DNA of 25,085 nucleotides, from IMG/VR virus record IMGVR_UViG_3300031673_000444, positions 1 to 25,085 of that record. The stretch is one strand, 5' to 3'. The notes beneath the pieces were generated by a model. The model was not told the origin of the DNA. It saw only the letters and a list, made by a program, of their open reading frames with translations, and ran no database searches. Both the position numbers and the translations under genes were made by a program. This document shows positions 1 through 17,831 of this stretch, piece by piece (within the stretch, counting starts at the first letter, position 1; every line of letters begins with the position of its first letter). Origin of the DNA: a virus.

Positions 1-56
1 TCAAATTTGAGAGTAGTCTCAGCAAAAACAAACAATACAAAAAACAAAAAATAATG
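1..56 (+). repeat. 56-bp leader repeat, copy A
   Basis: This stretch is identical, base for base, to 2202-2257 and ends in the start codon (ATG at 54-56) of the first small paralogous structural gene. It contains a short hairpin, TGAGA-GTAG-TCTCA at 8-21, followed by an A/C-rich unstructured tail leading into the ATG. The tail looks like the A-rich leaders Bacteroidota use in place of a Shine-Dalgarno site. Copy A begins at the first base of the window, so it may extend further upstream. A shared 5' UTR or control element is an inference. Confidence 0.95.
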
Positions 57-521
57 TCAAAACAAACATTACAGGCTGGGCGAGCTATAGAGGTGGTACC
101 AAGTGATACTATCAATATATCCAATCCAGCATCAAGAGTAATTTCTAGTACAACCACAGCTACTACAGCAAATAAGTTGACCGATTCAGCTGGGCTATTT
201 ACAACTACTAATCTAGTTCACATTGGAGATGTTATAATAAATACCACTGACAACACAACAGCGACTGTGACTGCTGTAGATAGCGCAACAGCATTAAGTA
301 TATCAGCAGATATAATGGCTAATACTGAGACGTATAAAATATTCCACAAAGCAGGTGATGGGTACACGTTATATATTGGTGGTGCTGGGAATATTTCAAT
401 GGAGATAGGCGGTGACACCATAGTATTCTCAGGGATAATAGGGGGTACCTTATTACCTGTTCACGTAACTCGTGTCAATTCTACACTTACTACTTGTACA
501 TTAATTCGTGCCTTAACTTAA
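54..521 (+). CDS. Small virion protein, fibre-cassette leader gene A (paralogue of 2255-2719)
   Basis: The 155-aa product is a likely structural or fibre-anchoring protein; its exact role is unknown. Three parts can be seen: an N-terminal segment with PSDTIN at about residues 17-22; a Thr/Ala-rich beta-type module at about 38-97 containing TAVDSATALSISADIM; and a C-terminal beta segment at about 104-155 with an LYIGGAG...GGD..VF pattern. The whole chain aligns with the 154-aa product at 2255-2719, with roughly half the positions alike by eye. The middle module recurs in the head gene at 17257-17775. There is no signal peptide, membrane segment or enzyme motif. It starts in the repeated 56-bp leader and lies 3 bases upstream of the fibre gene, so the two are probably co-translated. 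I recall such PSDTIN...LYIG proteins as phage virion proteins, but not with an assigned position in the particle. Confidence 0.8.
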   Translation: MSKQTLQAGRAIEVVPSDTINISNPASRVISSTTTATTANKLTDSAGLFTTTNLVHIGDVIINTTDNTTATVTAVDSATALSISADIMANTETYKIFHKAGDGYTLYIGGAGNISMEIGGDTIVFSGIIGGTLLPVHVTRVNSTLTTCTLIRALT

Positions 522-524
522 TAA

Positions 525-1919
525 ATGCAAAACTCAATCGGTATATTTATTGGGAGTATGATGACGGCAGCCTATAATATAGGAGCCAACTTAATGACGC
601 AATTAAAGTTTCGGTCTGAAGCGGATGGGGGCACGTTTGAAAATCTATACGGGGGAATTGACACTATAAATGACCTGCAATCCATAGGTTTGCTAGACAC
701 GGCTAGACTTATAATAACACCTAACGCTTATAAGAGCGGTGTATTGTACGGTACTTATCCAAATACTACTGATGCGGATATGGACTGGGTGCGAGCGACT
801 ACGGCAAATAGAACAAATGCTAGTTTAGTTTCAGCAAGCGTAGCAAGTGGAGTACCTAGAGTTTCATATCCTTTAGACGGTGGTAGACCTTTTGTGTTAT
901 CAGAGCCAGCGAGAACGAATGTATGTTTGCAGTCAGAAGATATGACAACTACGTGGAGTTCGACAAGATTAAACAAAACAGCAAACGCGACAACCGCACC
1001 CGATGGAACTACAACAGCCGATAAAATATATGATGACTACTCGGCTAGCGCATCTCATACAAATCAGCAGGTAAACGTATTAGTCACAGGTCAACAAGTA
1101 ATAAGTATCTTTGTAAAGGCAGGCGAATACACAAAGTTTTACATAGGCAATCACAGTATTGCAACGGTTAGCTGTTTTGATTTAACAACAGGAACAGTTG
1201 AGGGTAACATAGGTAGTTGTGTGGGAAGTATTGAAGCCTATCCAAATGGATGGTATAGAGTTTCAACGGTTATTACTTGCACAGCAGGCAACCTTTTAAT
1301 TATGGGAATGTATATTACCTATAATGCGACGTACACAACGATAGTAAATCACACAGGTGACGGAGCAAGTGGTGTCTATATTTGGGGTTGTCAAGTCGAA
1401 GCAGGAGCTTACATCTCAACATACATACCAACTACAACAGTTGCGGTTACAAGAGCAGCAGACTTAGGAACAGGCAGTGGAGTAGCTGCAACATTCAATA
1501 GTGAGACGGGTGTATTGTTTGTTGATATAGCGGCTTTGTATGATGACAGTACAAATCGGAGAATTAGTATTAGTGATGGGACATTCAACAATAGAGTTGT
1601 AATCAGTTTTGACACATCAAATAAAATACAATGTTATTACGTTGCTGGTGGAGTTTCTAGTGCCACCCCCTCATTTGTGAAAGATACAACAGTATTTTCA
1701 AAAATAGCTTTTAGATGGGCTGTTAATGATTTCGCTTTATGGGTAGATGGGACAGAGAGAGCAACGGATGTCTCAGGGAGTGTATGTTCCGCTAATACTC
1801 TTACAGCTTTTCAACTAACGGACGGTAATGGCGGGTTACCATTCTACGGCAAATTCAAAGCTATTATACACTATCCTGTTTATTTAGACGATACACAAAT
1901 GGCAAACTTAACAACATGA
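525..1919 (+). CDS. Phage fibre/spike protein with carbohydrate-binding and LamG-like domains
   Basis: The 464-aa product is a probable receptor- or glycan-binding fibre. Residues 1-125 form an N-terminal part that may attach to the particle. At about 129-305 is the block typical of phage head-spike-fibre/CBM-like proteins: it opens with ARTN, continues with TAPDGTTTADK, has an NGWYRVS strand, and closes with QVEAG...YIPTT. Residues 310-464 look like a concanavalin/LamG jelly roll, with FALWVDGTERA as the usual late strand. There is no catalytic motif or signal peptide. It follows the small paralogue by 3 bases and overlaps the next gene by ATGA. The second cassette carries an unrelated fibre at the same place, so this gene is probably an exchangeable adhesin. 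Head fibre versus tail fibre cannot be settled from sequence. Confidence 0.8.
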   Translation: MQNSIGIFIGSMMTAAYNIGANLMTQLKFRSEADGGTFENLYGGIDTINDLQSIGLLDTARLIITPNAYKSGVLYGTYPNTTDADMDWVRATTANRTNASLVSASVASGVPRVSYPLDGGRPFVLSEPARTNVCLQSEDMTTTWSSTRLNKTANATTAPDGTTTADKIYDDYSASASHTNQQVNVLVTGQQVISIFVKAGEYTKFYIGNHSIATVSCFDLTTGTVEGNIGSCVGSIEAYPNGWYRVSTVITCTAGNLLIMGMYITYNATYTTIVNHTGDGASGVYIWGCQVEAGAYISTYIPTTTVAVTRAADLGTGSGVAATFNSETGVLFVDIAALYDDSTNRRISISDGTFNNRVVISFDTSNKIQCYYVAGGVSSATPSFVKDTTVFSKIAFRWAVNDFALWVDGTERATDVSGSVCSANTLTAFQLTDGNGGLPFYGKFKAIIHYPVYLDDTQMANLTT

Positions 1920-2191
1920 AATTTATAAAAATACCAAAAGACAAGCAAAAGCATTATTTAGTTAGTGCAATACTGGCGCTAGTTTTAATTCTAGGAATAG
2001 GACTATTTAATCTTAAAGTAGGAATAATTGCAGGGCTTTTAATAAGTACAGGACTAGGACTAGCAAAGGAGTTTATTTGGGATAGATGGTTAAAGCGTGG
2101 CACGTTTGATGTCAATGATATAGCTTTTAATATATTAGGCGTTTGGAGTGGAGCGTTTTTAGCCGCAATAATAACAGAATTATTTTTTTAG
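1916..2191 (+). CDS. Small membrane protein, possibly DUF2279/YfiM-like
   Basis: The 91-aa product has about three hydrophobic segments (roughly residues 13-33, 34-50 and 70-88) separated by a polar stretch. The polar stretch has GLAKEFIWDRW and then GTFDVNDIAFNILG, a GKEx(3)D...GxxDxxDxxxNxxG pattern that I associate with the DUF2279/YfiM family of small phage and bacterial membrane proteins. The N-terminal DKQKH also fits that family. Its start overlaps the fibre stop (ATGA), and it is the last gene before leader copy B. It ends with TAG followed at once by TAA. A part in lysis or membrane modification is possible but not shown. Confidence 0.6.
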   Translation: MKFIKIPKDKQKHYLVSAILALVLILGIGLFNLKVGIIAGLLISTGLGLAKEFIWDRWLKRGTFDVNDIAFNILGVWSGAFLAAIITELFF

Positions 2192-2201
2192 TAATAAGAA
2201 G

Positions 2202-2257
2202 TCAAATTTGAGAGTAGTCTCAGCAAAAACAAACAATACAAAAAACAAAAAATAATG
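2202..2257 (+). repeat. 56-bp leader repeat, copy B
   Basis: This is an exact copy of positions 1-56, ending in the ATG (2255-2257) of the second small paralogous gene. The hairpin TGAGA-GTAG-TCTCA lies at 2209-2222. The identity stops at the start codon: just inside the two genes the sequences are only partly alike. So the non-coding leader is far better conserved than the coding sequence it introduces, which points to a regulatory role, recent recombination, or both. Confidence 0.95.
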
Positions 2258-2719
2258 CCAACACAAAAATTACAAGTAGAAAGAGCTATAAATGTTATAC
2301 CTAGCGACACAATTAACTTACCCGATCCAGCTAAGAAAATTTTAAATAGCACGGCAACTACAACCACAGCTAATAAGCTAGTAGACTCAACCAAGGATTT
2401 TACAACTAACGGAACAGCAATAGGTAATATTATTTATAATACGTCTACTTCATTAGTTGCAACAGTCACAGCTATCGATAGCGCAACAACACTTTCTATA
2501 TCAGCAGATATAATGCTTGACACCAACGCTTATGTCCTTTATGCAAGCGCAGCCCCTAGTGCATTATTTTTCATTGGAGTGGCAGGAGACTTGAAGGTAA
2601 CTACCTACGGAGGAGAAGAAGTTTTATTTACTGCTCATCCAGCAGGGTACGCGCCGTTAAATGTAAAAAGAATATGGTCAACGACAACGACCGCAACTAA
2701 CATAATAGCACTTTGGTAA
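2255..2719 (+). CDS. Small virion protein, fibre-cassette leader gene B (paralogue of 54-521)
   Basis: The 154-aa product matches the first-cassette protein over its full length. It shares PSDTIN at 17-22, TANKLVDS at about 38-45, TAIDSATTLSISADIM at about 72-87, and the C-terminal FFIGVAGDLKV...GGEEV.F...NVKRI segment that ends in ALW. The C-terminus resembles a beta domain seen at the ends of various phage structural proteins. The start lies in the second copy of the 56-bp leader. The next gene, a different fibre, begins one base after the stop (TAATATG), so this protein is probably made with, and may seat, that fibre. A duplication of the first cassette followed by divergence is the simplest origin. 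The function is inferred from context only. Confidence 0.8.
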   Translation: MPTQKLQVERAINVIPSDTINLPDPAKKILNSTATTTTANKLVDSTKDFTTNGTAIGNIIYNTSTSLVATVTAIDSATTLSISADIMLDTNAYVLYASAAPSALFFIGVAGDLKVTTYGGEEVLFTAHPAGYAPLNVKRIWSTTTTATNIIALW

Positions 2720-2720
2720 T

Positions 2721-3926
2721 ATGGGATTAATAATAGGAATGGACACGTCTCCAACAACAACAACAGCATCAGGAGGAAGGGCATGGGTACGTAATCCCGA
2801 CTGGCTCGCCCTACCTACTGTCGTGTCAGGGGACGACATGATGTATGGACTTTTTGCTGTTTATGAAAATGCATACAATCATGTAGGAATAAGTTTATCA
2901 GGAAGCAATCCAGTAGGCAATATAGACTGGGGTGATGGGACTACAAGTTTAAGTTTTAACAGTACTGTAAAACAAGAAAAAGTGTACTCTTACGCGGCAG
3001 TTACAGGCAGTGTACTTGTAGATGATTTTGGGGATAATTACAAGATGGTGATTATTGAGGTAGAAATATTAAATAATGCAACTGCTATTTATATAGATAG
3101 AAGCCCTACAACGGGGTTTGGACAAAACGCAGCAGTAAACTGGCTTGATGTTATTATAGATTGTGCAACCATGACTGTACTTTCTGTTCGCAATGATCAG
3201 GTGAGTTCATTACTACAGAGGTTGCAGATTATTGATAACGCTATTACTTCACTTTCTTTTGTATATTCAACACTACCGGCTTTAAGGATATTACAAGCAG
3301 ACTTTTCTTCAAATACAGGAGCAGCATCGTATGCGTTTCAACAAGTTGGTGATATAAGACAGAATGATGATTCTGCCGTCAACATAAACATGCCAAGCGC
3401 TACCACGGCTACCTCTGCTTTTACAACATCCAGTGCAACAGCACTCGGCACAGTAACTTTAACAGCAGCTACAGACGTGTCATCAATTTTTACAGTTTGC
3501 AAGGACCTCGTTAGTATTGGGACTATGGATTTTTCAACAGCAAGTATCATGGGTAGTGCATTTTCCTATTGCTACAGCCTTCGCACTATTGGGAACATAA
3601 CAACAACAACGGCATTAAATGGGTCCTGCGCTTCGATGTTTAGAGGATGCGGTCAATTAAGAGGTGTTAATATTTCTAATATGAACAATGTTACATCGCT
3701 CTCTGCCGCTTTTACCGACACAGGGTCTCTCACATCTGTTATACTCACAGGGTTGACGAAAACAGTAGACTTACAATACAACATGATGGATGCTGATGCT
3801 ATAGACGCTTTGTTTACTAGTTTAGGGACAGCAGTTGCACAGACGATTTCTGTAGACAACAATCCAGGTGCAGCAACGTGTGACCCAACAATAGCAACAG
3901 CAAAGGGCTGGACAGTAGTAGTATAA
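2721..3926 (+). CDS. Phage fibre protein with PKD-like and BspA-like repeat domains
   Basis: The 401-aa product is a probable host-binding fibre. Residues 1-30 have a Thr-rich stretch (TSPTTTTA). Residues about 50-105 look like a PKD/surface beta domain, with the IDWGDGTT signature and a KVYSYAA strand. Residues about 115-345 are repeat-like, with recurring units such as LRILQADFSS, DFSTASIMGSAFSYCYSL and MFRGCGQLRGVNISNMNNVTSL. This is the BspA-type leucine-rich (DUF285) style common on Bacteroidota surfaces and their phages. The C-terminus (DADAIDALFTSLG...ATAKGWTVVV) is the usual cap of such fibres. It occupies the same cassette position as the lectin-like fibre at 525-1919 but shares no domain with it. 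Binding to host surface protein or glycan is inferred. Confidence 0.8.
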   Translation: MGLIIGMDTSPTTTTASGGRAWVRNPDWLALPTVVSGDDMMYGLFAVYENAYNHVGISLSGSNPVGNIDWGDGTTSLSFNSTVKQEKVYSYAAVTGSVLVDDFGDNYKMVIIEVEILNNATAIYIDRSPTTGFGQNAAVNWLDVIIDCATMTVLSVRNDQVSSLLQRLQIIDNAITSLSFVYSTLPALRILQADFSSNTGAASYAFQQVGDIRQNDDSAVNINMPSATTATSAFTTSSATALGTVTLTAATDVSSIFTVCKDLVSIGTMDFSTASIMGSAFSYCYSLRTIGNITTTTALNGSCASMFRGCGQLRGVNISNMNNVTSLSAAFTDTGSLTSVILTGLTKTVDLQYNMMDADAIDALFTSLGTAVAQTISVDNNPGAATCDPTIATAKGWTVVV

Positions 3927-3937
3927 AAATAGAAATT

Positions 3938-4111
3938 ATGTTTTATAAAAAAGATAGTAATACAGATTGGAAACAAGCATCAGGAAAAATTCACCTCCCT
4001 GATGGAACAATATTGTCTAAAGATAATAAATTATCTAAAAGTGGATGGATATGGTTACCAAAACCTCCTATAGAATATACAGACTGGATAAATACTAAAA
4101 TACACTTTTAA
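3938..4111 (+). CDS. Small hypothetical protein (57 aa)
   Basis: A 57-codon reading frame runs from the ATG at 3938, eleven bases after the fibre stop, to the TAA at 4109-4111. The product is polar, basic and Trp-rich. It begins MFYKKDSNTDWKQASG, has a central HLPDGTILS strand, and has W-I-W-L-PKPP towards the end. The A-rich leader before the ATG matches the other genes here, and the frame fills a gap that would otherwise be 214 bases long. The LPDGTILSK...GWIWLPKPP pattern suggests a small beta domain, perhaps a fibre accessory. I do not recognise the family. Confidence 0.6.
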   Translation: MFYKKDSNTDWKQASGKIHLPDGTILSKDNKLSKSGWIWLPKPPIEYTDWINTKIHF

Positions 4112-4140
4112 TGTGAATATAATGTAGCAAACAATTTGTT

Positions 4141-4434
4141 ATGACTGAAACACAAGAAATACTAAAGGCGATAGAATCCGCAAATGGCGGGTATTGGCTT
4201 CCTATAACAATAATTGGCGGCGGAGCTACCATGATACTCGGCCTACTGCTTTTTATATATAATCTGCACCTAAAAACAAGTAACGGGAAGCATAAGGCAA
4301 GCGAAGACACGCAAAAAGAGCTGAAAGAGAACTTGGTAGAGCTTAGAATCTTATCTCAAAAATATGATACAAAATTAGAGAGCCACCAAGGACAAATCAA
4401 TGAAAACAGAAGAAATATAAAAGAAGCAGGATGA
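4141..4434 (+). CDS. Holin-like membrane protein with C-terminal coiled coil
   Basis: The 97-aa product has a short N-terminal polar region, one membrane segment at about residues 18-42 (from YWLPITIIGGG to LLLFIYNLHL), and a charged helix at about 45-95 with heptad-like Leu/Ile spacing (ELKENLVELRILSQKY). The single membrane helix plus soluble coiled coil resembles XhlA-like and other small phage lysis proteins. It overlaps the next membrane gene by ATGA, and that gene overlaps the endolysin, so the three are one translationally coupled lysis unit. Which of the two small membrane proteins is the actual holin cannot be decided; this one could instead be an antiholin. Confidence 0.6.
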   Translation: MTETQEILKAIESANGGYWLPITIIGGGATMILGLLLFIYNLHLKTSNGKHKASEDTQKELKENLVELRILSQKYDTKLESHQGQINENRRNIKEAG

Positions 4435-4652
4435 GCAAGTTTGTAAATGACATGTTAAAGGAGCGCGACGGCAAATGGAGCCGTAAAAGCTGGTATGCTT
4501 TCTTGTCGTTCTTCTTAGGCGTTGGCTATGAATTTGGGCTGGGATTCTTTATAGAAACAAAAGAATACGTATTTATAACTTTGCTTGGAGTCACCACAGC
4601 GGTTATTTTTGCAACAGTAGCGGATAAGAAAAATACGAAGCACGAACTATGA
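4431..4652 (+). CDS. Small two-helix membrane protein, holin candidate
   Basis: The 73-aa product has a basic N-terminus (MLKERDGKWSRKSWY), two hydrophobic helices at about residues 21-41 and 45-65, and a charged tail (DKKNTKHEL). The size, two-helix topology and charged tail are those of a class II-type phage holin, which opens the inner membrane for an endolysin without a signal peptide. It overlaps the preceding membrane gene and the following amidase by 4 bases each (ATGA), typical of a lysis operon. No sequence family is recognised with certainty. Confidence 0.6.
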   Translation: MSKFVNDMLKERDGKWSRKSWYAFLSFFLGVGYEFGLGFFIETKEYVFITLLGVTTAVIFATVADKKNTKHEL

Positions 4653-5335
4653 GGATTAGAGATATTTGCAAGAACATAACAAAGGCTTTTACGAAGGTTA
4701 AGCCAGAAAGTAAATGGCTGTATCTTATAGATCCAGGACACGGCGGAATCAATCCAACAACCCAAGAATATGTTACATCAGGCAAACGATCACCTCGATT
4801 TGACGACATGTCCATATTGTACGAGGGCGTCAATAACCGTGACAATGCATCGCGCATCATAAAAGCATTACGTAAAAATGGCATGGAAGCTATTGACATT
4901 GTAGATGACTGGCGCGACATTTCATTATCTGCAAGAGTAAGAGACGCTAACGCTTTGGCAAAAACAAGGAAATGCGTTTACATATCGATACACTCGGACG
5001 CTCAAGGCATGGGAAAGGAATGGATGCCGGCTAGCGGGATCAGTGTTTACACTTCGCCAGGCAAAACAAAATCTGATATTTTTGCTGACTACATGATACA
5101 GGCGCTTGAAAATAATTTCAATGAGTCAGTAAAATGGCGCTTTGACTCATCTGACGGAGACAAGGATAAGGAAGCGCATTTCGCAGTGTTAACAGGAACC
5201 AATTGCCCCGCGATACTAATGGAATTGGGGTTTCACACAAACAAGGTTGAGGCAACCCGTATGTTGACGGATGAATGGAAGGACAAAATGGTATTGGCTG
5301 TAGTAGAAGCTTGTAAAAAATGGGAAGATGAATAA
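4649..5335 (+). CDS. Endolysin: N-acetylmuramoyl-L-alanine amidase (Amidase_3)
   Basis: The 228-aa product is a zinc amidase that cuts the bond between N-acetylmuramic acid and L-alanine in peptidoglycan. The family signature is complete: LIDPGHGG with zinc ligand H31, a Glu ligand in the LYEGVNNRD stretch (E59), SIHSDA with H115, and the catalytic Glu in ILMELGFHTN (E192). Residues 1-23 are a short basic lead; there is no signal peptide and no separate wall-binding domain, so export would depend on a holin. Length is typical for a catalytic-domain-only phage amidase. It sits between the two small membrane genes and the spanin-like pair and overlaps its neighbours by 4 and 8 bases. Confidence 0.92.
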   Translation: MRIRDICKNITKAFTKVKPESKWLYLIDPGHGGINPTTQEYVTSGKRSPRFDDMSILYEGVNNRDNASRIIKALRKNGMEAIDIVDDWRDISLSARVRDANALAKTRKCVYISIHSDAQGMGKEWMPASGISVYTSPGKTKSDIFADYMIQALENNFNESVKWRFDSSDGDKDKEAHFAVLTGTNCPAILMELGFHTNKVEATRMLTDEWKDKMVLAVVEACKKWEDE

Positions 5336-6443: not shown

Positions 6444-6997
6444 AAATAGAAGATGGTAAAGGTAAAAATGGGGATTGTTCCGTTAGTGTTGCACAAAGAT
6501 TAAACGTATCTGCAAAAACAAGAGATAGAGTATTTTATGTAAGTAGGGATGATGAACAGGCTTTTAATGCTATTATGCCCTCATTTAGTGCTGCGGCTGG
6601 TGAATATGTATTCTATTTAAAAAATAGTTCTTCAACTAAAAATATATTTTTACACTCTATAGAGTTTCACTCGTTACAAGCAGTACATTGGAAAGTCTGG
6701 CAAGTAACTGGAACTGCTGCTGGAGGAACTGTAATAACACCTTCTAATCTGAATCTAGGAAGTGGTAGGACAGCAGAAGCTACCTGTATGGGCGGAGCCG
6801 CTACAATTACAGGCTTAACTCTTGGTAATCAAATAGGAACCCATAGAACTCAAGCTACGGGAGAGGCGGGCATGAATTTTGGGCAAGGATTAATTCTTGC
6901 TCCTAACACAGCTATTGTAGTTGAATATGATACAGGAACAACAGGTTTATGTGAGATAGATTGCGTCTACCATTATGAACCTATTGGATTCTCTTAA
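6440..6997 (+). CDS. Conserved virion-type protein (beta-rich)
   Basis: The 185-aa product starts with IEDGKGKNGDCSVSVAQRLNV, a pattern I recall from a conserved family of phage structural proteins. It continues with beta strands: RVFYVSRDDEQAFN, EFHSLQAVHWKVWQVTGTA, a Gly/Thr-rich turn region, and AIVVEYDTGTTGLCEIDCVYHYE at the end. No enzyme residues or membrane segments are seen. The next gene also opens with an IKDGTG motif and ends in a similar strand pair, so the two may be distantly related or form one substructure. The stop codon directly abuts the next ATG. Confidence 0.6.
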   Translation: MKIEDGKGKNGDCSVSVAQRLNVSAKTRDRVFYVSRDDEQAFNAIMPSFSAAAGEYVFYLKNSSSTKNIFLHSIEFHSLQAVHWKVWQVTGTAAGGTVITPSNLNLGSGRTAEATCMGGAATITGLTLGNQIGTHRTQATGEAGMNFGQGLILAPNTAIVVEYDTGTTGLCEIDCVYHYEPIGFS

Positions 6998-7627
6998 ATG
7001 AGTGGTGTATCGGTAGATATTAAAGACGGGACAGGCTCTAAGCATAGATTAAAGATCACTCCTGACAATGAAGCTTTAGTCACTCAGGCTCCTTACCCTC
7101 CGTTTCTACCTCAAAAAATCAGACCGTTTAGGCAGTACATGACTGTGGATGGTTTGTCTAGCGGCAGCAAGGACATGGGGGTGGACGGCAGTGTCACCAA
7201 TGTAGAGTTTTACATACCAGCAGTTGAAGGGTACGATAGATATATAACCGCTATGAACGTGCTAATTGGTTACGGCACAAGCGCTCAACCATATCAATTT
7301 GCAGACGGCGCGGCCTTAACCAATGGATGTAAAATCCAGTACCTATCGTTAAAAGGGAGTGTAGATCTCCATGAAGGAATAAAGTCTAATCAAGACATGT
7401 TTAGACTGACTGATGATCCTATAACGTCACTATGGGAAATAAGGGGAATTAACGCGCTGAATGATTACGGCTACCTAATAGCCTTAGACTTAAAAGTCAT
7501 AAGCTCTGAGTATGGCATTAAACTCGACGAGGGAACATCTCAAAGGTTAAGCATGATAATAAAAGACGACTGCACAGCGGCAGATTCTTTTAATATTATC
7601 ACTTACGGTTTCGAGAGATTCGCTTAG
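6998..7627 (+). CDS. Conserved virion-type protein (beta-rich)
   Basis: The 209-aa product begins VSVDIKDGTGSKHRLKITPDNEAL, then APYPPFLPQKIRPFRQYMT, then a VDGSVTNVEFYIPA strand and an EGYDRYITAMNV strand. It ends with FNIITYGFERFA. This overall pattern matches a conserved phage structural family that I remember next to tail or neck genes, but its role has not been defined as far as I know. Start and stop are tight: no gap from the previous gene, TAG stop, then 45 bases to the next gene. It is soluble and has no signal peptide. It is probably a virion component working with the 185-aa neighbour. Confidence 0.6.
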   Translation: MSGVSVDIKDGTGSKHRLKITPDNEALVTQAPYPPFLPQKIRPFRQYMTVDGLSSGSKDMGVDGSVTNVEFYIPAVEGYDRYITAMNVLIGYGTSAQPYQFADGAALTNGCKIQYLSLKGSVDLHEGIKSNQDMFRLTDDPITSLWEIRGINALNDYGYLIALDLKVISSEYGIKLDEGTSQRLSMIIKDDCTAADSFNIITYGFERFA

Positions 7628-7643
7628 CGTCTTGTTTTTTCAT

Positions 7644-7651
7644 TATCTTTA
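7644..7651 (+). promoter_or_regulatory. Possible -7 box (TATCTTTA)
   Basis: TATCTTTA differs by one base from the Bacteroidota -7 consensus TAnnTTTG. It lies in the 45-base gap before the gene at 7673, with an A/T-rich leader behind it. No -33 TTG at a suitable distance is seen, so the call is weak. Confidence 0.3.
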
Positions 7652-7672
7652 CAGTAAATTAAATTTAATATA

Positions 7673-7936
7673 ATGAGTGAAAACAAAAGACTATCCCCTG
7701 ATGAGTTGAAAGAAGTTGTAGGTCTAACAGACAGCTTCCATAAAAATAGGGATGAATATGCTGATCTAAGCATTTACATCGAAAGGTTAAGAGCCAAGAA
7801 ATCAATTCTACTTAAAAAATTCGAAGAGTCAGAGCATTTATTAAAAGAATGCCATTACAGCCTCACATCAAAGTATGGCGATGTTGCTTTCGATTTTAAT
7901 GATGGATCCATACTCGAAAAAGAAGATGTCAAGTAA
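7673..7936 (+). CDS. Small coiled-coil hypothetical protein
   Basis: The 87-aa product is mostly helical and charged. Residues about 8-60 (ELKEVVGLTDSFHKNRDEY, then LSIYIERLRAKKSILLKKFEESEHLLKECH) have the Leu/Ile spacing of a coiled coil, and the last 20 residues (GDVAFDFNDGSILEKEDVK) look like a beta hairpin with an acidic tail. It is the first gene after the widest gap in this stretch and is preceded by a possible -7 box. It heads a run of overlapping genes that continues into the terminase and portal. The function is unknown. Confidence 0.6.
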   Translation: MSENKRLSPDELKEVVGLTDSFHKNRDEYADLSIYIERLRAKKSILLKKFEESEHLLKECHYSLTSKYGDVAFDFNDGSILEKEDVK

Positions 7937-8213
7937 TATCATACGTAAAATATCGATTGGACCCGACTACATGAAGTCCATGAACTATTCTGTAGGGCAG
8001 AAAGTTATTCGGAAATGGGATAATGGCGTGGAGTCATTTCACGAGATAGTTCATATCAAAGAAGTTGAAAAGCCCGAAACATCAGATACTCCCGAATATT
8101 TAATATTCATCGAAAACAGTGATGAGGAGTATTATGAGTGGAAAAAGGTTCAGAATATGCCAGTAGTTGTTGAGTATGTAACCGACTTCGAAGGCGATGA
8201 GGGCAGTAAATAG
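7926..8213 (+). CDS. Conserved hypothetical phage protein
   Basis: The ATG at 7926 gives a 95-aa protein beginning MSSNIIRKISIGPDYMKSM and overlapping the previous stop by 11 bases. The frame is open back to 7875, but starting there would add a hydrophobic, Met-rich stretch (MAMLLSILMM) that only reflects the other gene's codons. The body (SVGQKVIRKWDNGVESFHEIVHI, YLIFIENSDEEYYEWKKV, MPVVVEYVTDF) looks like a small beta-barrel. I recall IIRKISIG-type small proteins from Bacteroidota phages near head genes. The function is unknown. It overlaps the next gene by 17 bases. Confidence 0.65.
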   Translation: MSSNIIRKISIGPDYMKSMNYSVGQKVIRKWDNGVESFHEIVHIKEVEKPETSDTPEYLIFIENSDEEYYEWKKVQNMPVVVEYVTDFEGDEGSK

Positions 8214-8760
8214 CTTCATAGTAACCCCGCTAGGCGGAGAACTATTCAATAACTACAAGACTGTAGACGGCAAAAAGATAGCGGTGAGCACGAGTATCGA
8301 GGGTCACACAACAACCAATAGACACGCTGTTGTGACATCTGTACCAGGAAGATATAACGGACCAATAAAGGACGGGTACTTTTTAGTTGTGCATCACAAC
8401 ACGTTCCGGAAAACTTACGACATGCAAGGCGTTGAGAAATTCGCAGCGGGACACATACGCGATAACTACTACATGATTGACGACATAGAAATATTCGCTT
8501 ACCGCAAGTCGCAGAAGGACGCGTGGATACCAATTGAACCGTTTTGCTTTGTAGAACCTATACTCGACACGAATGACGACAACAAGAATGCAATGATTGA
8601 GCTAAACGGCATAATGAAATATTCCAATAAGGAGTTAACAGATCAAGGGGTTAACAATGGAGACCATGTTGTTTTTACTCCTGACAGTGAGTACGAGTTT
8701 ATGCTAGACGATCAAAAACTGTACAAGATAAATTCATCAAGCATATGCCTAAAACTATAA
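8197..8760 (+). CDS. Probable GroES-like co-chaperonin, two-domain
   Basis: The 187-aa product appears to hold GroES-fold features twice. In the first half, NRHAVVTSVP and GYFLVVHHNTFRK resemble the G.V..V......G.D.VV.H strands of GroES. In the second half, GDHVVFTPDSEYEFMLDDQKLYKINSSSI closely follows the GD.V.F...SEYE...DG..LY.....I pattern near the GroES C-terminus. Between them WIPIEPFCFVEPI could begin the second copy. Phage GroES-like proteins, such as T4 gp31, help host GroEL fold the capsid protein, and the position ahead of terminase, portal and capsid genes fits that. The length, about twice a single GroES, is compatible with two barrels. The call is from pattern memory and needs a profile or structure check. 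Confidence 0.55.
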   Translation: MRAVNSFIVTPLGGELFNNYKTVDGKKIAVSTSIEGHTTTNRHAVVTSVPGRYNGPIKDGYFLVVHHNTFRKTYDMQGVEKFAAGHIRDNYYMIDDIEIFAYRKSQKDAWIPIEPFCFVEPILDTNDDNKNAMIELNGIMKYSNKELTDQGVNNGDHVVFTPDSEYEFMLDDQKLYKINSSSICLKL

Positions 8761-9059
8761 AAGAACTTCGAGAAGAAATTATTGAGGGGTCACTGAAAAG
8801 TGTAGCTGAACTTATAGCATTTTCAGAGGTTGAAATATCAGCGCAAGGATTGGATGAGGGAGAAGCGCAATACGCTCGCAGACTACAATTGGTATCAGCG
8901 GCTAAACAAAAGGCTTCTTTTGACGCCTTTAAGTTAATGGACAAGATTGAGGAGGAAAAAAAGAAATTGGGTGAGGCTGAGGTAATAGTGCCAACCACTA
9001 CCACTGCGCCTACCAAACCAATAATAACGGATTTCAATGCGCCAGAAAAACGAGCCTAA
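8745..9059 (+). CDS. Small terminase subunit candidate
   Basis: The 104-aa product is largely helical (IKELREEIIEGSLKSVAELIAF, YARRLQLVSAAKQKASFDAFKLMDKIEEEKKKL), then has a Thr/Pro linker (VPTTTTAPTKP) and a short tail (DFNAPEKRA). It lies directly before the large terminase and overlaps it by 23 bases. This is where many tailed phages carry the small terminase, which recognises phage DNA for packaging. Helical content, size and position fit, but no helix-turn-helix DNA-binding signature is clear. A scaffold-like or terminase-accessory role is equally possible. Confidence 0.45.
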   Translation: MPKTIKELREEIIEGSLKSVAELIAFSEVEISAQGLDEGEAQYARRLQLVSAAKQKASFDAFKLMDKIEEEKKKLGEAEVIVPTTTTAPTKPIITDFNAPEKRA

Positions 9060-11304
9060 AGAATATTCATGGCCACTGTTGTACACGGTGGATGAAACCC
9101 ATATCGACAAAGCCGCTATATCTGCTAAAAACAGGGGTAAGTCATGGACGTATGGGTATCACGAGAAATATGACGTTATTGTAATATCAAAAAACGGTCA
9201 GATAGGAGAGGTATACGATATTGAGGGAATTAAGATTGCCCTACCGAAAACACCGAAGGCTATCCCGAAAAGAGAGAATAAATGGGTGGCGATTCCTGTA
9301 CCGAAAGAACTGGCGCGTATAAAGACAAGACTTGAATGGAGCGAGTACGACAACGAATTCAAGGCTAAGCATGTCCCATATATAGAGGAAGAATTTAACA
9401 GAAGGGAATTTGGGTATTGGTTTTACAACAACAGTGTGCCAACCTACATGACGGGGAAGCACTACATGTATCTTCAGCATTCCAAAACAGATACGGGGAG
9501 GCCCGATTTCAGAGAGGCCAACCGAATATGGCATATATTCTGGCAGGCGTGTATATCAGATGAGAGATCGTTCGGGATGATATATCTAAAGATTCGACGG
9601 TCTGGATTTTCCTTTATGGGAGCCTCTAGCGCAATTGAAACAGCAACACTAGCCAGAGATGCAAGTGTGGGTATGCTATCGAAAACCGGGGCTGACGCAA
9701 AAAAACTATTTACCGACAAGGTTGTTCCTATATCAATGGGGTACCCCTTCTTTTTTAAGCCTATACAGTCTGGACAGGACAGACCAAAATCGGCAATTGA
9801 ATACACTCTTCCTGCGTCAAGAATAACCAAGAAAAACATGCATGGAACGCATGAATACGATGAGTTTGACGCGTTGGATACAGTTGTCGATTGGAAGAGC
9901 ACGGATGACAATAGCTATGATGGACAGAAGCTCTTGGAGTTGCTGCATGACGAATCGAGTAAATGGGTCCTACCACTTAACATACTGAATAACTGGCGAG
10001 TAACTAAGACATGCTTAAGGCTAGGCGCAAAAATAGTTGGTAAATGCTGTATGGGATCCACGGTAAACGCATTGGCTAAAGGAGGCGCAAATTACAAGAA
10101 GCTGTACGAACTTTCGGACCAATCAGACAGAACCAAAAACGGTCAGACTAGATCGGGGTTATATAGATTATTCATACCAATGGAGTGGAACTTCGAAGGG
10201 TTCATAGATGAGTATGGATGGCCCGTGTTTGTTACCCCGAAAAAGCCTGTTATGGGTGTTGACGGCAGTTGGATAACGCAAGGAGTGATTGAGTATTGGG
10301 ACAATGAAGTTGAGGCGCGTAAGAATGATCCTGACGACCTGAACGAATTCTACAGACAGTTCCCAAGAACAGAGTCGCATGCGTTCAGAGACGAGTCAAA
10401 AGCATCAATCTTCAACCTGACTAAAATATACGAGCAAATAGACCATAATGACGGACTAGGGTACACAATGAAGCAAATAGCTAGAAGAGGTAATTTTAGT
10501 TGGAAGGACGGAAAGAGAGACACCGAGGTAGTCTGGACACCAGACCCTAAAGGGAAATTCAATCTAGGATGGATGCCAGGACCAAGCTTAACCAACAACG
10601 TAAGGAAACAAGGCGACTTGAAATTCCCAAAGAACAAGCATCTAGGAATGTTCGGATGTGACCCGTATGATATTAATGGAACAGTTGGTGGTGGCGGATC
10701 GAAAGGGTCACTTCATGGATTAACAAAAACAAATACGGATGACAACGTTCCGTCTAGTAGATTTTTCTTAGAATATATCTCACGCCCCCCAACCGCCGAA
10801 ATATTTTTTGAGGACGTGTTGATGGCTATACATTATTACGGTATGGAGATACTTGTGGAGAACAACAAGGTACGCCTGTTGGTATATCTAAAAATGAGAG
10901 GATACAGAGCCTTCGCTATGAATCGACCCGACAAGCCTACAAGTGCATTATCAAAGAATGAATTATCATTGGGGGGAATACCAAACTCATCTGTAGATGT
11001 TATTCAGACGCATGCTGATTGCATAGCCTCATATATTGAGGAGCAGGTAGGCTACGACAAGGAAGAGACATATAGAAGCTCAGAGAACTGTGGTGAAATG
11101 CCATTCATGGAAACTTTAAAAGACTGGGCGACATTCGATATAACAAACAGAACGAAACACGATGCCTCGATAAGTTCAGGACTAGCCATCATGGGGACGC
11201 GTAAACACAAGCTTACTCCGATCAAAGAAAGTTCGGAAATAAAGTTTAACTTTGCAATGTACGATAATTCAGGCACCACGAGTAAAATCATAAGAAATGG
11301 CTAA
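9037..11304 (+). CDS. Large terminase subunit (TerL)
   Basis: The 755-aa product is the packaging motor ATPase plus nuclease that pumps and cuts phage DNA at the portal. The ATPase half has a deviant Walker A (YLKIRRSGFSFMGASS, residues 183-198), Walker B LLHDESS (D305, E306), and a coupling-type motif GKCCMGSTVN (336-344). The C-terminal RNase H-like nuclease half has GCDPYD (D542), an acidic residue in ILVENNK (E608), and a late Asp in KHDASISSGLA (D709). These motifs resemble terminases of crAss-like and related large podoviruses. An N-terminal extension of about 170 residues precedes the ATPase core. The start overlaps the previous stop by 23 bases; the end overlaps the portal by 8 bases. 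Confidence 0.9.
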   Translation: MRQKNEPKEYSWPLLYTVDETHIDKAAISAKNRGKSWTYGYHEKYDVIVISKNGQIGEVYDIEGIKIALPKTPKAIPKRENKWVAIPVPKELARIKTRLEWSEYDNEFKAKHVPYIEEEFNRREFGYWFYNNSVPTYMTGKHYMYLQHSKTDTGRPDFREANRIWHIFWQACISDERSFGMIYLKIRRSGFSFMGASSAIETATLARDASVGMLSKTGADAKKLFTDKVVPISMGYPFFFKPIQSGQDRPKSAIEYTLPASRITKKNMHGTHEYDEFDALDTVVDWKSTDDNSYDGQKLLELLHDESSKWVLPLNILNNWRVTKTCLRLGAKIVGKCCMGSTVNALAKGGANYKKLYELSDQSDRTKNGQTRSGLYRLFIPMEWNFEGFIDEYGWPVFVTPKKPVMGVDGSWITQGVIEYWDNEVEARKNDPDDLNEFYRQFPRTESHAFRDESKASIFNLTKIYEQIDHNDGLGYTMKQIARRGNFSWKDGKRDTEVVWTPDPKGKFNLGWMPGPSLTNNVRKQGDLKFPKNKHLGMFGCDPYDINGTVGGGGSKGSLHGLTKTNTDDNVPSSRFFLEYISRPPTAEIFFEDVLMAIHYYGMEILVENNKVRLLVYLKMRGYRAFAMNRPDKPTSALSKNELSLGGIPNSSVDVIQTHADCIASYIEEQVGYDKEETYRSSENCGEMPFMETLKDWATFDITNRTKHDASISSGLAIMGTRKHKLTPIKESSEIKFNFAMYDNSGTTSKIIRNG

Positions 11305-13720
11305 GAAAGATGTCCCATTAATTGCTAAAGTTAATTTCCCCAACTATCTAGCTACTGACGCAGAAAAAGCAAATGAGTCATACGGACTCGATGTCGCGCA
11401 GGCTATACAGCATGAGTGGTTCAATCAAACTTCTAACGGCTCTTGTGGCTATTACGATAATTGGCTAGGCATTCACCGAAGTAGGCTATACTCTAGGGGA
11501 GAGCAACCTATCGGACAGTACCAAGACAGAATGAAGGTTAACGGGGACTTATCCAAGTTAAACTTAAACTGGAGCATAGTAAAGATCGTTCCGAAATACG
11601 TTGACATTGTTGTTAATGGGATGAACAATAGACTATTCACTCCAAAAGCTTTTGCACAAGATGTAACCTCATCAGAGGAGAGAGACCTATATCAAAGAAC
11701 AATTGCTGAAGACATGATCGCGCAGGAGTTCCTAAAGCAGACTATGGATGAATTCGGAATTGACGCTTTTAACATTCCACAAGATCAAATACCAAACTCA
11801 GATCAAGAACTTCAATTACACATGCAGCTTGAATTCAAGCCTGCGATAGAAATAGCCGAGGAAGAAGCGATATCTACAGTTTTTGAAATGAACAATTTCC
11901 TAAATATCAAGTATAGATACGATACTGACCAGGTAGTATTAGGAAGGGGCTTTGTAAAACACGAGTACCTGCACACAGAAGGAATCAAGATAAGCTATGT
12001 CGACCCTCAAAACACGATACACAGTTACACTGAGGATCCATATTACAAGGACGTGTTCTACTGGGGAGAAGTTAAAAGGATTCCTATATTAGAATTAAAG
12101 AAAATCAAGCCTAGCATTACTAAAGAAGAAATTGCACAAGTGATGGCTACGGGTAATTCATGGAGTTCAACCTACACGGTAATGAAGCCACATGCCGAGA
12201 CAGTTTTTGACAAGGACGTGACAAACGTGTTGTACTTCAGGTATAAGATGGACAAGAATTTCGTGTATAAAATTAAGACGCTTGAAAACGGAGGGCGAAG
12301 AGCCATAAGAAAAGATGACGAATTCAATCCAGAAGAAAGCGAATTTTTCGAGAGAGTTGAAAAGAAGATTGACGTATGGTATGAAGGAGTGTTAATACTG
12401 GGAACAAATATTCTATTGAAGTGGGAGTTGATGAAAAACATGGTTCGTCCTGAAGCCGCTACACAAAGAGCATATTCAGGATATATTGGCGTCGCTCCCA
12501 AACTATATAATAACACGTACGACTCATTAGTCGACAGGATGATACCTTTTGCCGATCTAATTCAATTGACACATTTAAAAACACAGCAGGTTCTACAGAA
12601 AATAGTACCGGATGGTGTATTTATAGATGCCGATGGACTTGTAGGAATCAACCTTGGTGACGGAGCCGTTTACGGACCTCAGCAGGCCTTAGATTTATAC
12701 ATGACAACGGGTAGTGTTATCGGAAGAAGCAAGACTGACGATGGTGAATTTAACAATGCGCGCATACCAATTCAAGAATTAACCACAAGCAGCGGACAGT
12801 CAAAACTGAACACATTGATAACCACGCTTAACAGTTACATGGGATCGATACAAAGTGTAACGGGGCTGAATGAGGCACGAGACGCTTCTAATCCTGATGC
12901 AAACTCATTGGTTGGGCTTCAAAAAATGGCCGCTTTAAATTCAAACACGGCTACAAGACATATTCTTGAGGCGGGGCTTGATATGACGAAGCAATTAGCA
13001 GAGGGGGTTTCGATAAGAATATCTGATGTATTAGAGCATGCTGAGGACGCACAAGAATTAGCGAATCAAATCGGGAAGTCGAATGTAGCTACTCTTGATA
13101 AGATCAAGGACTTACCATTATACTCTTTCGGAATATTCATAGAGGTTTCTCCAGACGAAGAGGAAAAGGCTAATGTAGAGACAAACATTCAGTTGGCATT
13201 GAAATCAGGAAGCATATTGCTGGAGGACGCAGAAGATATCCGTCAAGTGAAGAACCCGAAATTAGCGAATGAGCTACTGAAGCTAAAGACGCGAAAGAAA
13301 GAGGAAAAAGACCAGAAACAAAAGGAGTTCGACTTACAAGCACAAACAGCATCGGCAATACAATCCCAACAAGCAATAGCACAGGCTAAAATGCAACAAA
13401 TCGATGCTGAGGCTAAGGCAAAAACAGGGGTGGAGCAAGCTAAGACGCAAGGAGAAATTGCTGTATTACAAGAGTCCGCAAGACTCAAGGAGAAGCTTAT
13501 GGGTATAGAACACGCATACGCTATGGAGATTGAAGGGCAAGCAGTGGCACGGGCTTCTGATTTAGAGAAAGAAAAGGACGAGGCTAAGCTGAAGCGGATT
13601 GATAAGCAGTCATCTAATACATCCACAATGATAACCCAGCGTCAATCAGGAACGCCAGCAAGAACTTTTGAATCAACCAATGATACTATGGAAGATATAG
13701 ACCTAGGTGATTTTGGTTAA
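11297..13720 (+). CDS. Portal protein with long coiled-coil C-terminus
   Basis: The 807-aa product is the probable portal, the ring at one capsid vertex through which DNA enters and leaves. It follows TerL with an 8-base overlap and precedes the scaffold-like and capsid genes. The body (about 1-650) has portal-like content: an N-terminal helical clip region, a stretch around WSIVKIVPKYVDIVVNGMNNRLF, and SVIGRSKTDDGEFNNARIPIQEL followed by the helical TSSGQSKLNTLITTLNSYMGSIQSVTGLNEARD, typical of crown/stem helices in podovirus portals. Residues about 655-775 are a long Lys/Glu/Gln/Ala coiled coil (KKEEKDQKQKEFDLQAQT onward), ending in an acidic tail (DTMEDIDLGDFG). The size matches crAss-like portals. 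No other family fits this position. Confidence 0.82.
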   Translation: MAKKDVPLIAKVNFPNYLATDAEKANESYGLDVAQAIQHEWFNQTSNGSCGYYDNWLGIHRSRLYSRGEQPIGQYQDRMKVNGDLSKLNLNWSIVKIVPKYVDIVVNGMNNRLFTPKAFAQDVTSSEERDLYQRTIAEDMIAQEFLKQTMDEFGIDAFNIPQDQIPNSDQELQLHMQLEFKPAIEIAEEEAISTVFEMNNFLNIKYRYDTDQVVLGRGFVKHEYLHTEGIKISYVDPQNTIHSYTEDPYYKDVFYWGEVKRIPILELKKIKPSITKEEIAQVMATGNSWSSTYTVMKPHAETVFDKDVTNVLYFRYKMDKNFVYKIKTLENGGRRAIRKDDEFNPEESEFFERVEKKIDVWYEGVLILGTNILLKWELMKNMVRPEAATQRAYSGYIGVAPKLYNNTYDSLVDRMIPFADLIQLTHLKTQQVLQKIVPDGVFIDADGLVGINLGDGAVYGPQQALDLYMTTGSVIGRSKTDDGEFNNARIPIQELTTSSGQSKLNTLITTLNSYMGSIQSVTGLNEARDASNPDANSLVGLQKMAALNSNTATRHILEAGLDMTKQLAEGVSIRISDVLEHAEDAQELANQIGKSNVATLDKIKDLPLYSFGIFIEVSPDEEEKANVETNIQLALKSGSILLEDAEDIRQVKNPKLANELLKLKTRKKEEKDQKQKEFDLQAQTASAIQSQQAIAQAKMQQIDAEAKAKTGVEQAKTQGEIAVLQESARLKEKLMGIEHAYAMEIEGQAVARASDLEKEKDEAKLKRIDKQSSNTSTMITQRQSGTPARTFESTNDTMEDIDLGDFG

Positions 13721-13731
13721 AAATAAATAGT

Positions 13732-13739
13732 TAACTTTG
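13732..13739 (+). promoter_or_regulatory. Bacteroidota -7 promoter box (TAACTTTG)
   Basis: TAACTTTG matches TAnnTTTG exactly, 25 bases before the ATG of the scaffold-like gene. A TTTG at 13712-13715 could be the -33 element, with a spacer of 16 bases, slightly shorter than usual. It lies in the first real gap after portal and could start a transcript for scaffold and capsid. Confidence 0.55.
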
Positions 13740-13740
13740 T

Positions 13741-13765
13741 TCAAATCAAATTAAATCAAATAAAA
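13741..13765 (+). repeat. A-rich pentamer leader
   Basis: Five consecutive pentamers (TCAAA TCAAA TTAAA TCAAA TAAAA) run directly into the ATG at 13765. There is no G and only three C before the start codon, so the leader should be unstructured. It resembles the leader at 16435-16454. Confidence 0.7.
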
Positions 13766-14973: not shown

Positions 14974-16383
14974 ATGGCAGGTTCAGTATCAGCGTCACCA
15001 GGGGTTAGTTTAACACCTACGGCGACCAAAATCGCGTTACCAACAAATTACATAACTGACTTCAGTTTCATCAATCAATATCTTCCGGATGTTCATGATG
15101 CAGAATTTGAAGCTTATGGAAATCGTTCGGTAGCATCTTTCTTGAGATTAGTAGGGGCAGAGATTCCAACTAACTCGGATTTAATCAAATGGGCAGAACA
15201 AGGGCGTCTGCACACAAAGTACGAGGACGTAGTAACAGCAACTGCTGACGCTGCGGATACAACAGTATTCACTCGTACAGGTGGCTTAACGTTCAATTTT
15301 AGAGCGAACCAAACTCTTATATTTTCAGATAATGCTGCTGATATAATTGCAAAGGGAGTTGTCTCTGCTATTAACGCAGCAAACACGCAATTGACTGTTG
15401 AGTGGTATGAGGCGGCTGGGCAACCAACTGGGTTCAATGCATCAGCAGCAATTACAACTTTTGTTTTCGGATCAGAATTCAAAAAAGGGTCTGCTGGAAT
15501 GGTTGGAGCGTTAGAGTCTGTAGATTCTTTCTACGATAATAAGACTATCATCATTAAGGAGAAGTATACTGTATCCGGTTCTGACATGGCTCAGATTGGA
15601 TGGGTTAATACAACTACTGAGAGTGGTGGTGGCGGATACTACTGGTTTTTGAAATCTCAAGGAGATACTCGTACTCGTTTCGAGGATTACACTGAGATGT
15701 CAATGATTGAGGCTGTTTCTGCTGAAAACGCATCTGGAGCTGAAGTATTCCTATCTGATAACACAGGTGGAGGAAACGCAGGCAGCGAAGGTATGTTCGA
15801 GGCTATCGAGACAAGAGGTAATGTTTGGGCAGGAGGAAATCCATCTACATTAGATGATTTTGATGCTGTTATCGCTCGACTTGATAAGCAAGGAGCTATT
15901 CGTGAAAACGTTTTATTCCTTGATAGAGGATTCTCAAACGACATGAACGGAATGCTTGCTGCTCAGAACAGCTTAGGATCAGGAGGAACGTCTTACGGTG
16001 TGTTTAACAACAGCGAAGATATGGCGATTAACCTTGGTTTTGACGGGTTCAAGAGAGGTTATGAGTTCTACAAGACTGATTGGAAATACTTAAACGATGC
16101 AACGCTTCGTGGAGGTTTAAATGGTGGTGCAGTTCATGGAGTAATGGTTCCAGCAGGAACAATGTCTATCTACGATCAAGTAATGGGTAAAAACGCAATG
16201 CGTCCATTCTTACACGTACGATACAGAGCTTCTGAGCACACTAGCCGTCTTTATCAAACATACATGACTGGTGGTTCTTCACCAAATCAGACTGATGATA
16301 TTGATGAAATGAACGTTAATTTCTTGACTGAAAGAGCTGTATGTACAATGGGTGCAAACAACTTCTTCATATTTAAAGGATAA
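14974..16383 (+). CDS. Major capsid protein
   Basis: The 469-aa product is the likely head shell subunit. The N-terminal pattern, LPTNYITDFSFINQYLPDV, then AYGNRSVASFLRLVGAE and SDLIKWAEQGRLH, is one I associate with crAss-like capsid proteins, and 469 aa is the right size. Residues about 85-168 form an inserted beta-rich domain between the RLH strand and FGSEFKKGSAGM. The rest, with YTVSGSDMAQIGW and NVLFLDRGFSND in the core and a C-terminal TERAVCTMGANNFFIFKG, is compatible with the HK97 fold. Codon choice is unlike most neighbours: by hand count ATA is 4 of 22 Ile codons, and Arg is mostly CGN. That suggests selection for high expression. It is followed directly by an intrinsic terminator. 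Confidence 0.82.
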   Translation: MAGSVSASPGVSLTPTATKIALPTNYITDFSFINQYLPDVHDAEFEAYGNRSVASFLRLVGAEIPTNSDLIKWAEQGRLHTKYEDVVTATADAADTTVFTRTGGLTFNFRANQTLIFSDNAADIIAKGVVSAINAANTQLTVEWYEAAGQPTGFNASAAITTFVFGSEFKKGSAGMVGALESVDSFYDNKTIIIKEKYTVSGSDMAQIGWVNTTTESGGGGYYWFLKSQGDTRTRFEDYTEMSMIEAVSAENASGAEVFLSDNTGGGNAGSEGMFEAIETRGNVWAGGNPSTLDDFDAVIARLDKQGAIRENVLFLDRGFSNDMNGMLAAQNSLGSGGTSYGVFNNSEDMAINLGFDGFKRGYEFYKTDWKYLNDATLRGGLNGGAVHGVMVPAGTMSIYDQVMGKNAMRPFLHVRYRASEHTSRLYQTYMTGGSSPNQTDDIDEMNVNFLTERAVCTMGANNFFIFKG

Positions 16384-17212: not shown

Positions 17213-17218
17213 TTTGGT

Positions 17219-17226
17219 TATCTTTG
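17219..17226 (+). promoter_or_regulatory. Bacteroidota -7 promoter box (TATCTTTG)
   Basis: TATCTTTG matches TAnnTTTG exactly, 30 bases before the ATG at 17257. No -33 TTG at a suitable distance is seen. It would allow separate expression of the head auxiliary gene. Confidence 0.5.
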
Positions 17227-17256
17227 TAACCAATATAAACCCATAAAATTTTTAAC

Positions 17257-17775
17257 ATGGCAAAATTTATCAAGGTTCCGCTTCAAGACGTACTTGACGC
17301 AGGAACAGATGCTACGGGTACAGCAAGCAAACTGACTGTAGCGTCAACAGCAACATTCACTATTGGTGATTATGTTCACAACACAACTGACGGCACTTAT
17401 GCCACCATCACGGCTATTGATAGCGCAACTGTAGCATCAATTAGCGCTGACATTATGGATGCCGCTGAGGTATACATTGTTTATTCAGCAACAGTTTCTT
17501 CAGTTTCAAGAACTATCTCTGCGGAGAGATTCCTTATGGCTGCTCAAGCAACTGCCGCTGCCAATGCGATCGGTGTAACAACTGTTCAGTATGCTTCAGG
17601 TGGTTTAGACACGTTAACTGCGACTCACGCAGGTAATTTGTTAGCAACAAGAACAATTGCGAAGGCTTTTGATGACGCCTTTATTAAAGCGTTCACTAGC
17701 GGTGTAAATCCAGATGGATTCTCTACACTTGTAATGCCTTCAGGCACAGGAATGTTTACATTGGCTATTGCATAA
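17257..17775 (+). CDS. Head auxiliary/decoration protein with a domain shared with the fibre-cassette proteins
   Basis: The 172-aa product lies two genes after the capsid gene and is bracketed by its own -7 box and terminator. Residues about 21-77 contain KLTVASTATFTIGDYVHN and TAIDSATVASISADIM, clearly the same module as in the proteins at 54-521 and 2255-2719. The remaining 95 residues (SRTISAERFLMAAQATAAANAIG to PSGTGMFTLAIA) are Ala/Thr-rich and have no counterpart in those proteins. Codon choice resembles the capsid gene. Separate transcription, position and small size point to an abundant head-surface protein. That is an inference, and a connector role remains possible. Confidence 0.65.
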   Translation: MAKFIKVPLQDVLDAGTDATGTASKLTVASTATFTIGDYVHNTTDGTYATITAIDSATVASISADIMDAAEVYIVYSATVSSVSRTISAERFLMAAQATAAANAIGVTTVQYASGGLDTLTATHAGNLLATRTIAKAFDDAFIKAFTSGVNPDGFSTLVMPSGTGMFTLAIA

Positions 17776-17829: not shown

Positions 17830-17831
17830 TT

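Follow-up and report, generated by a model that had tools for sequence, protein, structure and literature searches.

Two putative head-spike modules with paralogous base proteins and unrelated fibres in a phage genome fragment

We analysed the IMG/VR virus record IMGVR_UViG_3300031673_000444 over its entire length of 25,085 bases (hereafter the window; the record is itself a fragment) and found two modules lying head to tail at its left edge (1–1919 and 2202–3926), each composed of a leader, a base-like protein of about 155 residues and a fibre. We consider it likely that these are the genes for two head spikes like those on the gene transfer agent of Rhodobacter capsulatus (RcGTA), with each base mounting its own fibre, possibly giving the head two receptor specificities. 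A preliminary description made from the sequence alone had already proposed two cassettes of leader, small protein and fibre, and this arrangement is confirmed: the leaders are identical, the small proteins are paralogous and the gene order is the same. Its start position for the first module (54) is correct for the small gene, while leader copy A falls just outside it, and it passed over a gene for a 91-residue protein that lies between the modules. Fibre A starts 3 nucleotides (nt) past the end of base A and fibre B 1 nt past the end of base B. The features of the two modules are as follows.

1–53, plus strand: leader copy A, with the candidate near-promoter TCAAATTTG, a hairpin at about 7–22 and an A-rich stretch.
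54–521, plus strand: base A, 155 residues, with an arm (residues 1–25), an inserted barrel (about 26–101) and a core (about 102–155); matches NF048002.
525–1919, plus strand: fibre A, 464 residues, with an anchor-like QNSIGIFIG at 528–554 and a spike-fibre domain at 897–1460; matches NF048003.
2202–2254, plus strand: leader copy B.
2255–2719, plus strand: base B, 154 residues, with an arm (2255–2329), an inserted barrel (2330–2554) and a core (2555–2716); matches NF048002 and was modelled.
2721–3926, plus strand: fibre B, 401 residues, a putative BspA/LRR-type adhesin with the start MGLIIGM, a WGDG motif and an LRR stretch at about 3483–3764.

Both small proteins match NF048002 (the NCBIfam family "spike base protein, RCAP_Rcc01079 family"; cut-off 28 bits), base A at 33.1 bits and base B at 51.4 bits. 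A search of the genome with the same model places the base A match at 369–515, and none of the 14 control genomes was matched. There are 34 columns at which 85% or more of the relatives share a residue; base A agrees at 26 of them and base B at 27. When a profile of the shorter, core-type relatives was compared with solved chains, it recovered the spike base of phage Carin1 (E-value 1e-6) and Rcc01079 of RcGTA (E = 0.002); a third solved chain scored at chance level (E = 0.11). On these sequence grounds, the small proteins belong to the RcGTA-type head-spike base family, and the role proposed for them in the preliminary description, that of an adaptor seating adhesins, is very probably correct. 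A scan of genome contigs with the base alignment returned no confirmed relative.

An AlphaFold model of base B built with 70 relatives (predicted local distance difference test score, pLDDT, of 93.3) displays a small jelly-roll fold like that of the solved spike bases. The best match among 995 chains compared using VIA-align was 8cjz_h from Carin1 (Z = 10.5, root-mean-square deviation 1.5 over 70 residues), followed by 6tb9_A1, the RcGTA protein Rcc01079 (Z = 9.8, root-mean-square deviation 3.2 over 76 residues), with a third chain at Z = 8.0 and all others listed at or below that value. Foldseek alone found no match to the model with E below 0.001 (probability 1.00 was accompanied by E-values of 0.03–0.08), and the claim for the base fold therefore rests on VIA-align combined with sequence. 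The title of the 8cjz entry refers to a mature capsid. Unlike the window proteins, the Carin1 base is only 92 residues long and has no insert; in the base B model residues 25–100 or so form a separate small beta barrel (about 75 residues) inserted in the jelly-roll.

The two bases are identical at 75 of 153 aligned residues (their genes at 52.5% of bases), divided between the arm (15/25), the insert (41/75) and the core (19/53). In an exploratory comparison with the expectation from 69 relatives, the inserts are too similar (z = +2.5) and the cores too different (z = -3.2), and an insert–core contrast as large as this was found in 27 of 2346 pairs of relatives. The contrast may reflect either specialisation of the cores for different fibres or an exchange in the 5′ part of the genes.

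Fibre A matches NF048003, the GTA head-spike-fibre domain (Rcc01080), at 136.3 bits against a cut-off of 36; the same model has matches in five of the 14 control genomes, three of them above the cut-off. Using phmmer, residues 89–324 of fibre A (about 235 residues) align with Rcc01080 of RcGTA (6tb9_F3) at E = 3.4e-30, and the fibre is probably glycan-binding. The lectin or LamG-like label attached to it previously did not survive, as Laminin_G_3 scores 16.6 bits against a Pfam cut-off of 27.6 and the main domain is that of the GTA head-spike fibre. Fibre B has no match to NF048003 at E up to 1 and is not counted here as a member of the Rcc01080 family. As had been suggested, the fibres appear unrelated, with no significant similarity between them (best E = 0.78). 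The BspA-like label for fibre B fails for the protein itself, in which LRR_5 (BspA-like) reaches 23.7 bits against a Pfam cut-off of 27.7, but finds support in relatives, since fibres in the same gene position in contigs L003 and L004 pass for DUF285, a BspA-like repeat family. Its PKD label was not upheld: Pfam returned no PKD family at E up to 1, and only the WGDG motif aligns with relatives that have weak PKD hits. A structure model of fibre B was too poor for use (pLDDT 44), and no relative was found with fibre B as query against the viral contig collection.

RcGTA is described as having eleven head spikes, in each of which a base pentamer is held to a capsid pentamer by its N-termini and carries one fibre (PMC7296036). 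Five hydrophobic pockets are occupied by residues 2–10 of that fibre, where (iso)leucine alternates with small residues, and the fibre binds the capsule (same source). In relatives of the window, the open reading frames (ORFs) immediately downstream of the bases have a common N-terminal motif in RcGTA style, with a consensus of approximately [YFQ]I[AGS]I[AG]N.I[G]. We fitted a matrix of nine columns on 58 non-redundant N-termini, leaving out the window, and used 1740 ORFs as controls. Fibre A scores 17.9 bits, a value reached by 6/1740 controls and by 7/5000 shuffles of its own sequence. The start of fibre B resembles the MGLAIGIGN starts of some relatives and is set by alignment on the anchor of the L003 fibre, while a looser pattern, drawn after seeing MGLIIGM, fits 6/118 downstream ORFs and 0/1740 controls; these sequence likenesses are no more than suggestive of an N-terminal anchor. 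A test based on counting alternations gave poor separation and was replaced by the matrix. In many relatives (L202, L245, L254, L237, L183, L204 and others) the long fibre directly after the base is replaced by an anchored protein of 46–57 residues, as if the anchor had been split from the adhesin.

The likeness to RcGTA comprises the base family with its jelly-roll match, a base gene followed by a fibre gene, and homology of fibre A over some 235 residues. We propose that each base would be a small jelly-roll protein forming, by homology, a pentamer on a capsid vertex by means of its N-terminal arm, and that the N-terminal peptide of the fibre would plug into this pentamer. Fibre A is a true relative of the spike fibre, and the second mount of this type would bear fibre B, a BspA/LRR-type adhesin unrelated to it. 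Because the bases keep the capsid-facing arm while their cores are unusually divergent, base A is probably the mount of fibre A and base B that of fibre B, and two receptor specificities could be present on the head of the particle. We infer the capsid location, the pairing of base with fibre and the presence of both spikes on one virion; two specificities on one virion are plausible.

The number of bases was determined in records searched whole; one survey covered 44 (35 long A1/A2 contigs, six records of a two-base lineage and three named phages), and another used a subset of 50 loci. Among the 42 records of at least 40 kb that were searched whole and contain a base, 41 have one (the 35 A1/A2 contigs together with G004, G010, G022, G023, W01 and W02) and one, G021, has two. 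Flavobacterium phage elemoE_6-9C, a cultured relative whose host is Flavobacterium sp. BAL314, has a single base, and the more distant named phages Panino, phi18:3 and phi38:1 have none. A survey of 160 contigs (the top 80 from each of two sets, of 417 and 286 confirmed) found two bases in two of them, and there was no such case among the 82 that extend 3.5 kb or more on either side; four hits of the hidden Markov model that are not bases, namely two barrel proteins of L016/L017, the L221 fibre and the window protein at 17257, were removed from the first base survey. The next ORF begins within 10 nt of the base stop at 105 of 162 bases in relatives.

The lineage of G021 has a distinct first base of 119 residues, and a scan for this protein recovered nine contigs, eight of them distinct (L288 and L289 are the same over 16,354 bases). 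A second, ordinary base lies 2.2–3.6 kb 3′ of the first in all nine (L289 was not searched whole, and the first base of L281 is truncated). The first base is accompanied by a repeat-rich fibre starting MGTSL or MGSTL (MGNTL in one), and anchored proteins and spike fibres come after the second. The combination of two bases with unlike fibres therefore arose, or persists, in at least two lineages, although only in the window does each of the two bases have a fibre within 3 nt. With identities taken over the longer protein, so that a change of length counts, L285 and L286 have bases that are 96 and 100% identical, a first fibre at 46% and a protein after the second base at 100%; the corresponding values are 99 and 95% for bases and 59 and 43% for fibres in L287/L288, and 95 and 96% against 57 and 47% in L290/L291. 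Judged from these sequences, fibres appear in effect to be exchanged behind near-constant bases in the second lineage, which supports exchangeable adhesins. The comparison of cassette number and fibre identity called for in the preliminary description has a divided outcome: both bases are fixed in 9/9 contigs of this lineage, the result which that description named as refuting its exchangeable-adhesin model, yet the fibre bodies are exchanged.

More generally, many different fibres stand behind similar bases in the relatives, and fibres change faster than bases. The same kinds of adhesin were found in three arrangements. In L225 a single anchored fibre combines DUF285 repeats with a PKD-like stretch and LamG; in L004 one base is followed by a DUF285 fibre and, at a greater distance, by a spike fibre; and in the window they are spread over two bases. 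The L225 fibre (6480–10550) is a 1357-residue anchored protein with nine DUF285 stretches (PARCEL-repeat family, NCBIfam) in addition to its PKD-like and LamG parts. Fibres of 496–850 residues made of NNTA/AIGY repeats (L286:631-3183, L288:8377-10071) vary in length between near-identical phages. Between or beside the base and fibre genes, the spike regions of L114, L288 and L290 contain ORFs which we take to be endonuclease-like (with a GIY-YIG or HNH look) and which could drive cassette mobility. Single-linkage clustering of the 81 downstream fibres put 55 of them together and was not used.

The leader copies are identical at 53/53 bases, or 56/56 when the ATG is counted; a matching pair arose in 0/100 shuffles, and there is no third copy within the window. 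A small 5′ hairpin (-5.3 kcal/mol, z = -2.7, folded on copy B) precedes the A-rich stretch. TAnnTTTG is a promoter element of Bacteroidota, and CAAATTTG in the leader is one mismatch from it. This element is enriched 5′ of the bases in relatives (26/117 against 3.3 in shuffles), and TCAAATTTG may be a near-promoter; the plainest reading is that a strong promoter is combined with a leader that is stable and lacks structure. Promoter-like TAnnTTTG elements also precede other late genes of the window (13720–13765, 17212–17257 and 17775–17857), the spike leader having the one-off version only. The base of many relatives has on its 5′ side a small gene for a product that ends like CGC..R.D.LNR.FPY (for instance L285:1808-1978 and L287:2775-2945); the equivalent gene would fall beyond the left edge of the window.

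Beside these identical leaders, the base-gene coding sequence is saturated at fourfold sites (10/38 identical), which points to recent homogenisation, extreme constraint or an assembly effect. This is the only hint of the swapping through the repeated leader that had been suggested. The contig starts within leader copy A or right at its edge, which fits a break caused by the repeat. An exact 27-base leader pattern had no match in the viral contig collection, from which records near the window may have been excluded. Switching by inverted repeats and an invertase was rejected, as the leaders are direct repeats and there is one weak inverted pair only in 1–5000. A more elaborate proposal is that virions would have mixed vertices (A/A and B/B) and that the leader, perhaps with the arm and insert, would act as a recombination port, homogenised while core and fibre are replaced; populations would then differ in their cassettes, and the contig end would mark variants or cassettes further upstream. 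We regard this as unlikely.

Several observations weigh against the interpretation as two head spikes. Base A is only modestly over the NF048002 cut-off (33 versus 28 bits) and has a C-terminal T where W ends 91% of relatives, and the RcGTA base has no inserted barrel. Fibre B scores -2.1 bits on the anchor matrix, as high a score being found in 301/1740 controls; the RcGTA peptide itself reaches only -1.2, and the matrix is therefore specific to this group rather than valid for anchors in general. The fibre of the first base in the second lineage lacks the anchor and starts 16–62 nt downstream. Finally, the label given to the base family in PHROGs is "tail fiber protein", in keeping with an alternative that makes the base-like proteins adaptors for tail fibres, or else minor virion proteins, away from the capsid vertices and places both fibres on the tail. 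The genes adjoin lysis genes and not the major capsid gene (14974–16383), and these phages are podovirus-like Elemovirus relatives, in which head spikes are not shown in the literature consulted. We nevertheless think this alternative improbable in view of the match, in sequence and fold, to two solved capsid spike bases (RcGTA and Carin1) and of fibre A to the RcGTA head-spike fibre.

It is also improbable that only one cassette is active and that the other, perhaps A with its non-consensus C-terminus, is a paralogue in decay or transition after a new spike was acquired. Against this, both ORFs are intact, with identical leaders and tightly coupled fibre genes, and the second lineage keeps its two bases in every contig; in its favour, a single base is the rule (41/42), and base A is without several of the highly conserved residues, though base B agrees at only one more. 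An assembly chimera, joining the alternative cassettes of two strains at their common leader so that no virus carries both, is very improbable: it would suit a contig that begins at the repeat and the 53/53 leader beside saturated coding sequence, but copy B is joined to unique upstream sequence (the gene for the 91-residue protein) and two-base arrangements occur independently in other contigs.

The inserted barrel is a common arrangement, matching barrels of tail, capsid and ATPase proteins (VIA-align Z of 6–8). The same barrel as in the spike bases is found in other proteins of the virion region, in L016 (14002–14496) and in the window:

17257–17775, plus strand: 172-residue protein with the same kind of barrel (about 17314–17490), found by blastp.

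This protein is 50–61% identical to the two base inserts (E = 7e-11 to 7e-12), and the barrel looks like a domain mobile among structural proteins. As read by eye, it occupies another insertion site in the base of L004 and is apparently doubled in L199.

The gene between the modules and those after fibre B, for a spanin- or holin-like protein and an amidase endolysin, resemble the opening part of a lysis block:

1916–2191, plus strand: small membrane protein, 91 residues, VanZ / YfiM / DUF2279-like with every match below cut-off; probably outside the spike proper.

The large terminase has its relatives in phages of Flavobacteriia (Elemovirus, Cellulophaga and Maribacter phages) and is 60% identical to that of an uncultured podovirus of 60.8 kb. 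A PHROGs scan of ten other window proteins returned only packaging, head, tail or unknown families.

The preliminary description knew of no described system with this arrangement, a view that has to be revised. The module of base and fibre is already known from the RcGTA head spike, and it is the doubled, divergent spike that is new and uncommon; our searches of the open-access literature gave no description of a phage with two head-spike bases. The RcGTA spike is described with one base and one fibre, whereas the window has two bases behind identical leaders, with a barrel of about 75 residues in each and a BspA/LRR type in place of one fibre body. In phi-crAss001, a single capsid bears head fibres of two dissimilar kinds, the gp21 trimer and the gp29 dimer, for which the authors propose two binding specificities (PMC10172136). 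The comparison with the window is one of function only: those fibres are unrelated proteins that bind two kinds of hexon pocket directly, whereas here a single kind of site would be shared between, or contested by, the two paralogous bases. The HFTV1 turrets (PMC12494034) resemble the proposed spikes by description as two-part capsid spikes of base and head with a sugar-binding-like head, but are built of a gp30 hexamer and a gp31 trimer, sit on hexamers and are of one type per virion. The branched tail spikes of Ackermannviridae (PMC11414711) similarly combine several exchangeable receptor-binding proteins on a virion by means of conserved N-terminal domains; they differ in being on the tail, in one branched complex of unrelated proteins.

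These results link a class of adhesins of Flavobacterium-phage-like viruses, for the most part listed as hypothetical or as tail fibres, to a head-spike mechanism that has been solved. They offer two lineages with paired paralogous bases and unlike fibres in which dual receptor use on one capsid may be sought, and they suggest a general rule whereby a small base and a short N-terminal fibre anchor could mount almost any adhesin body.

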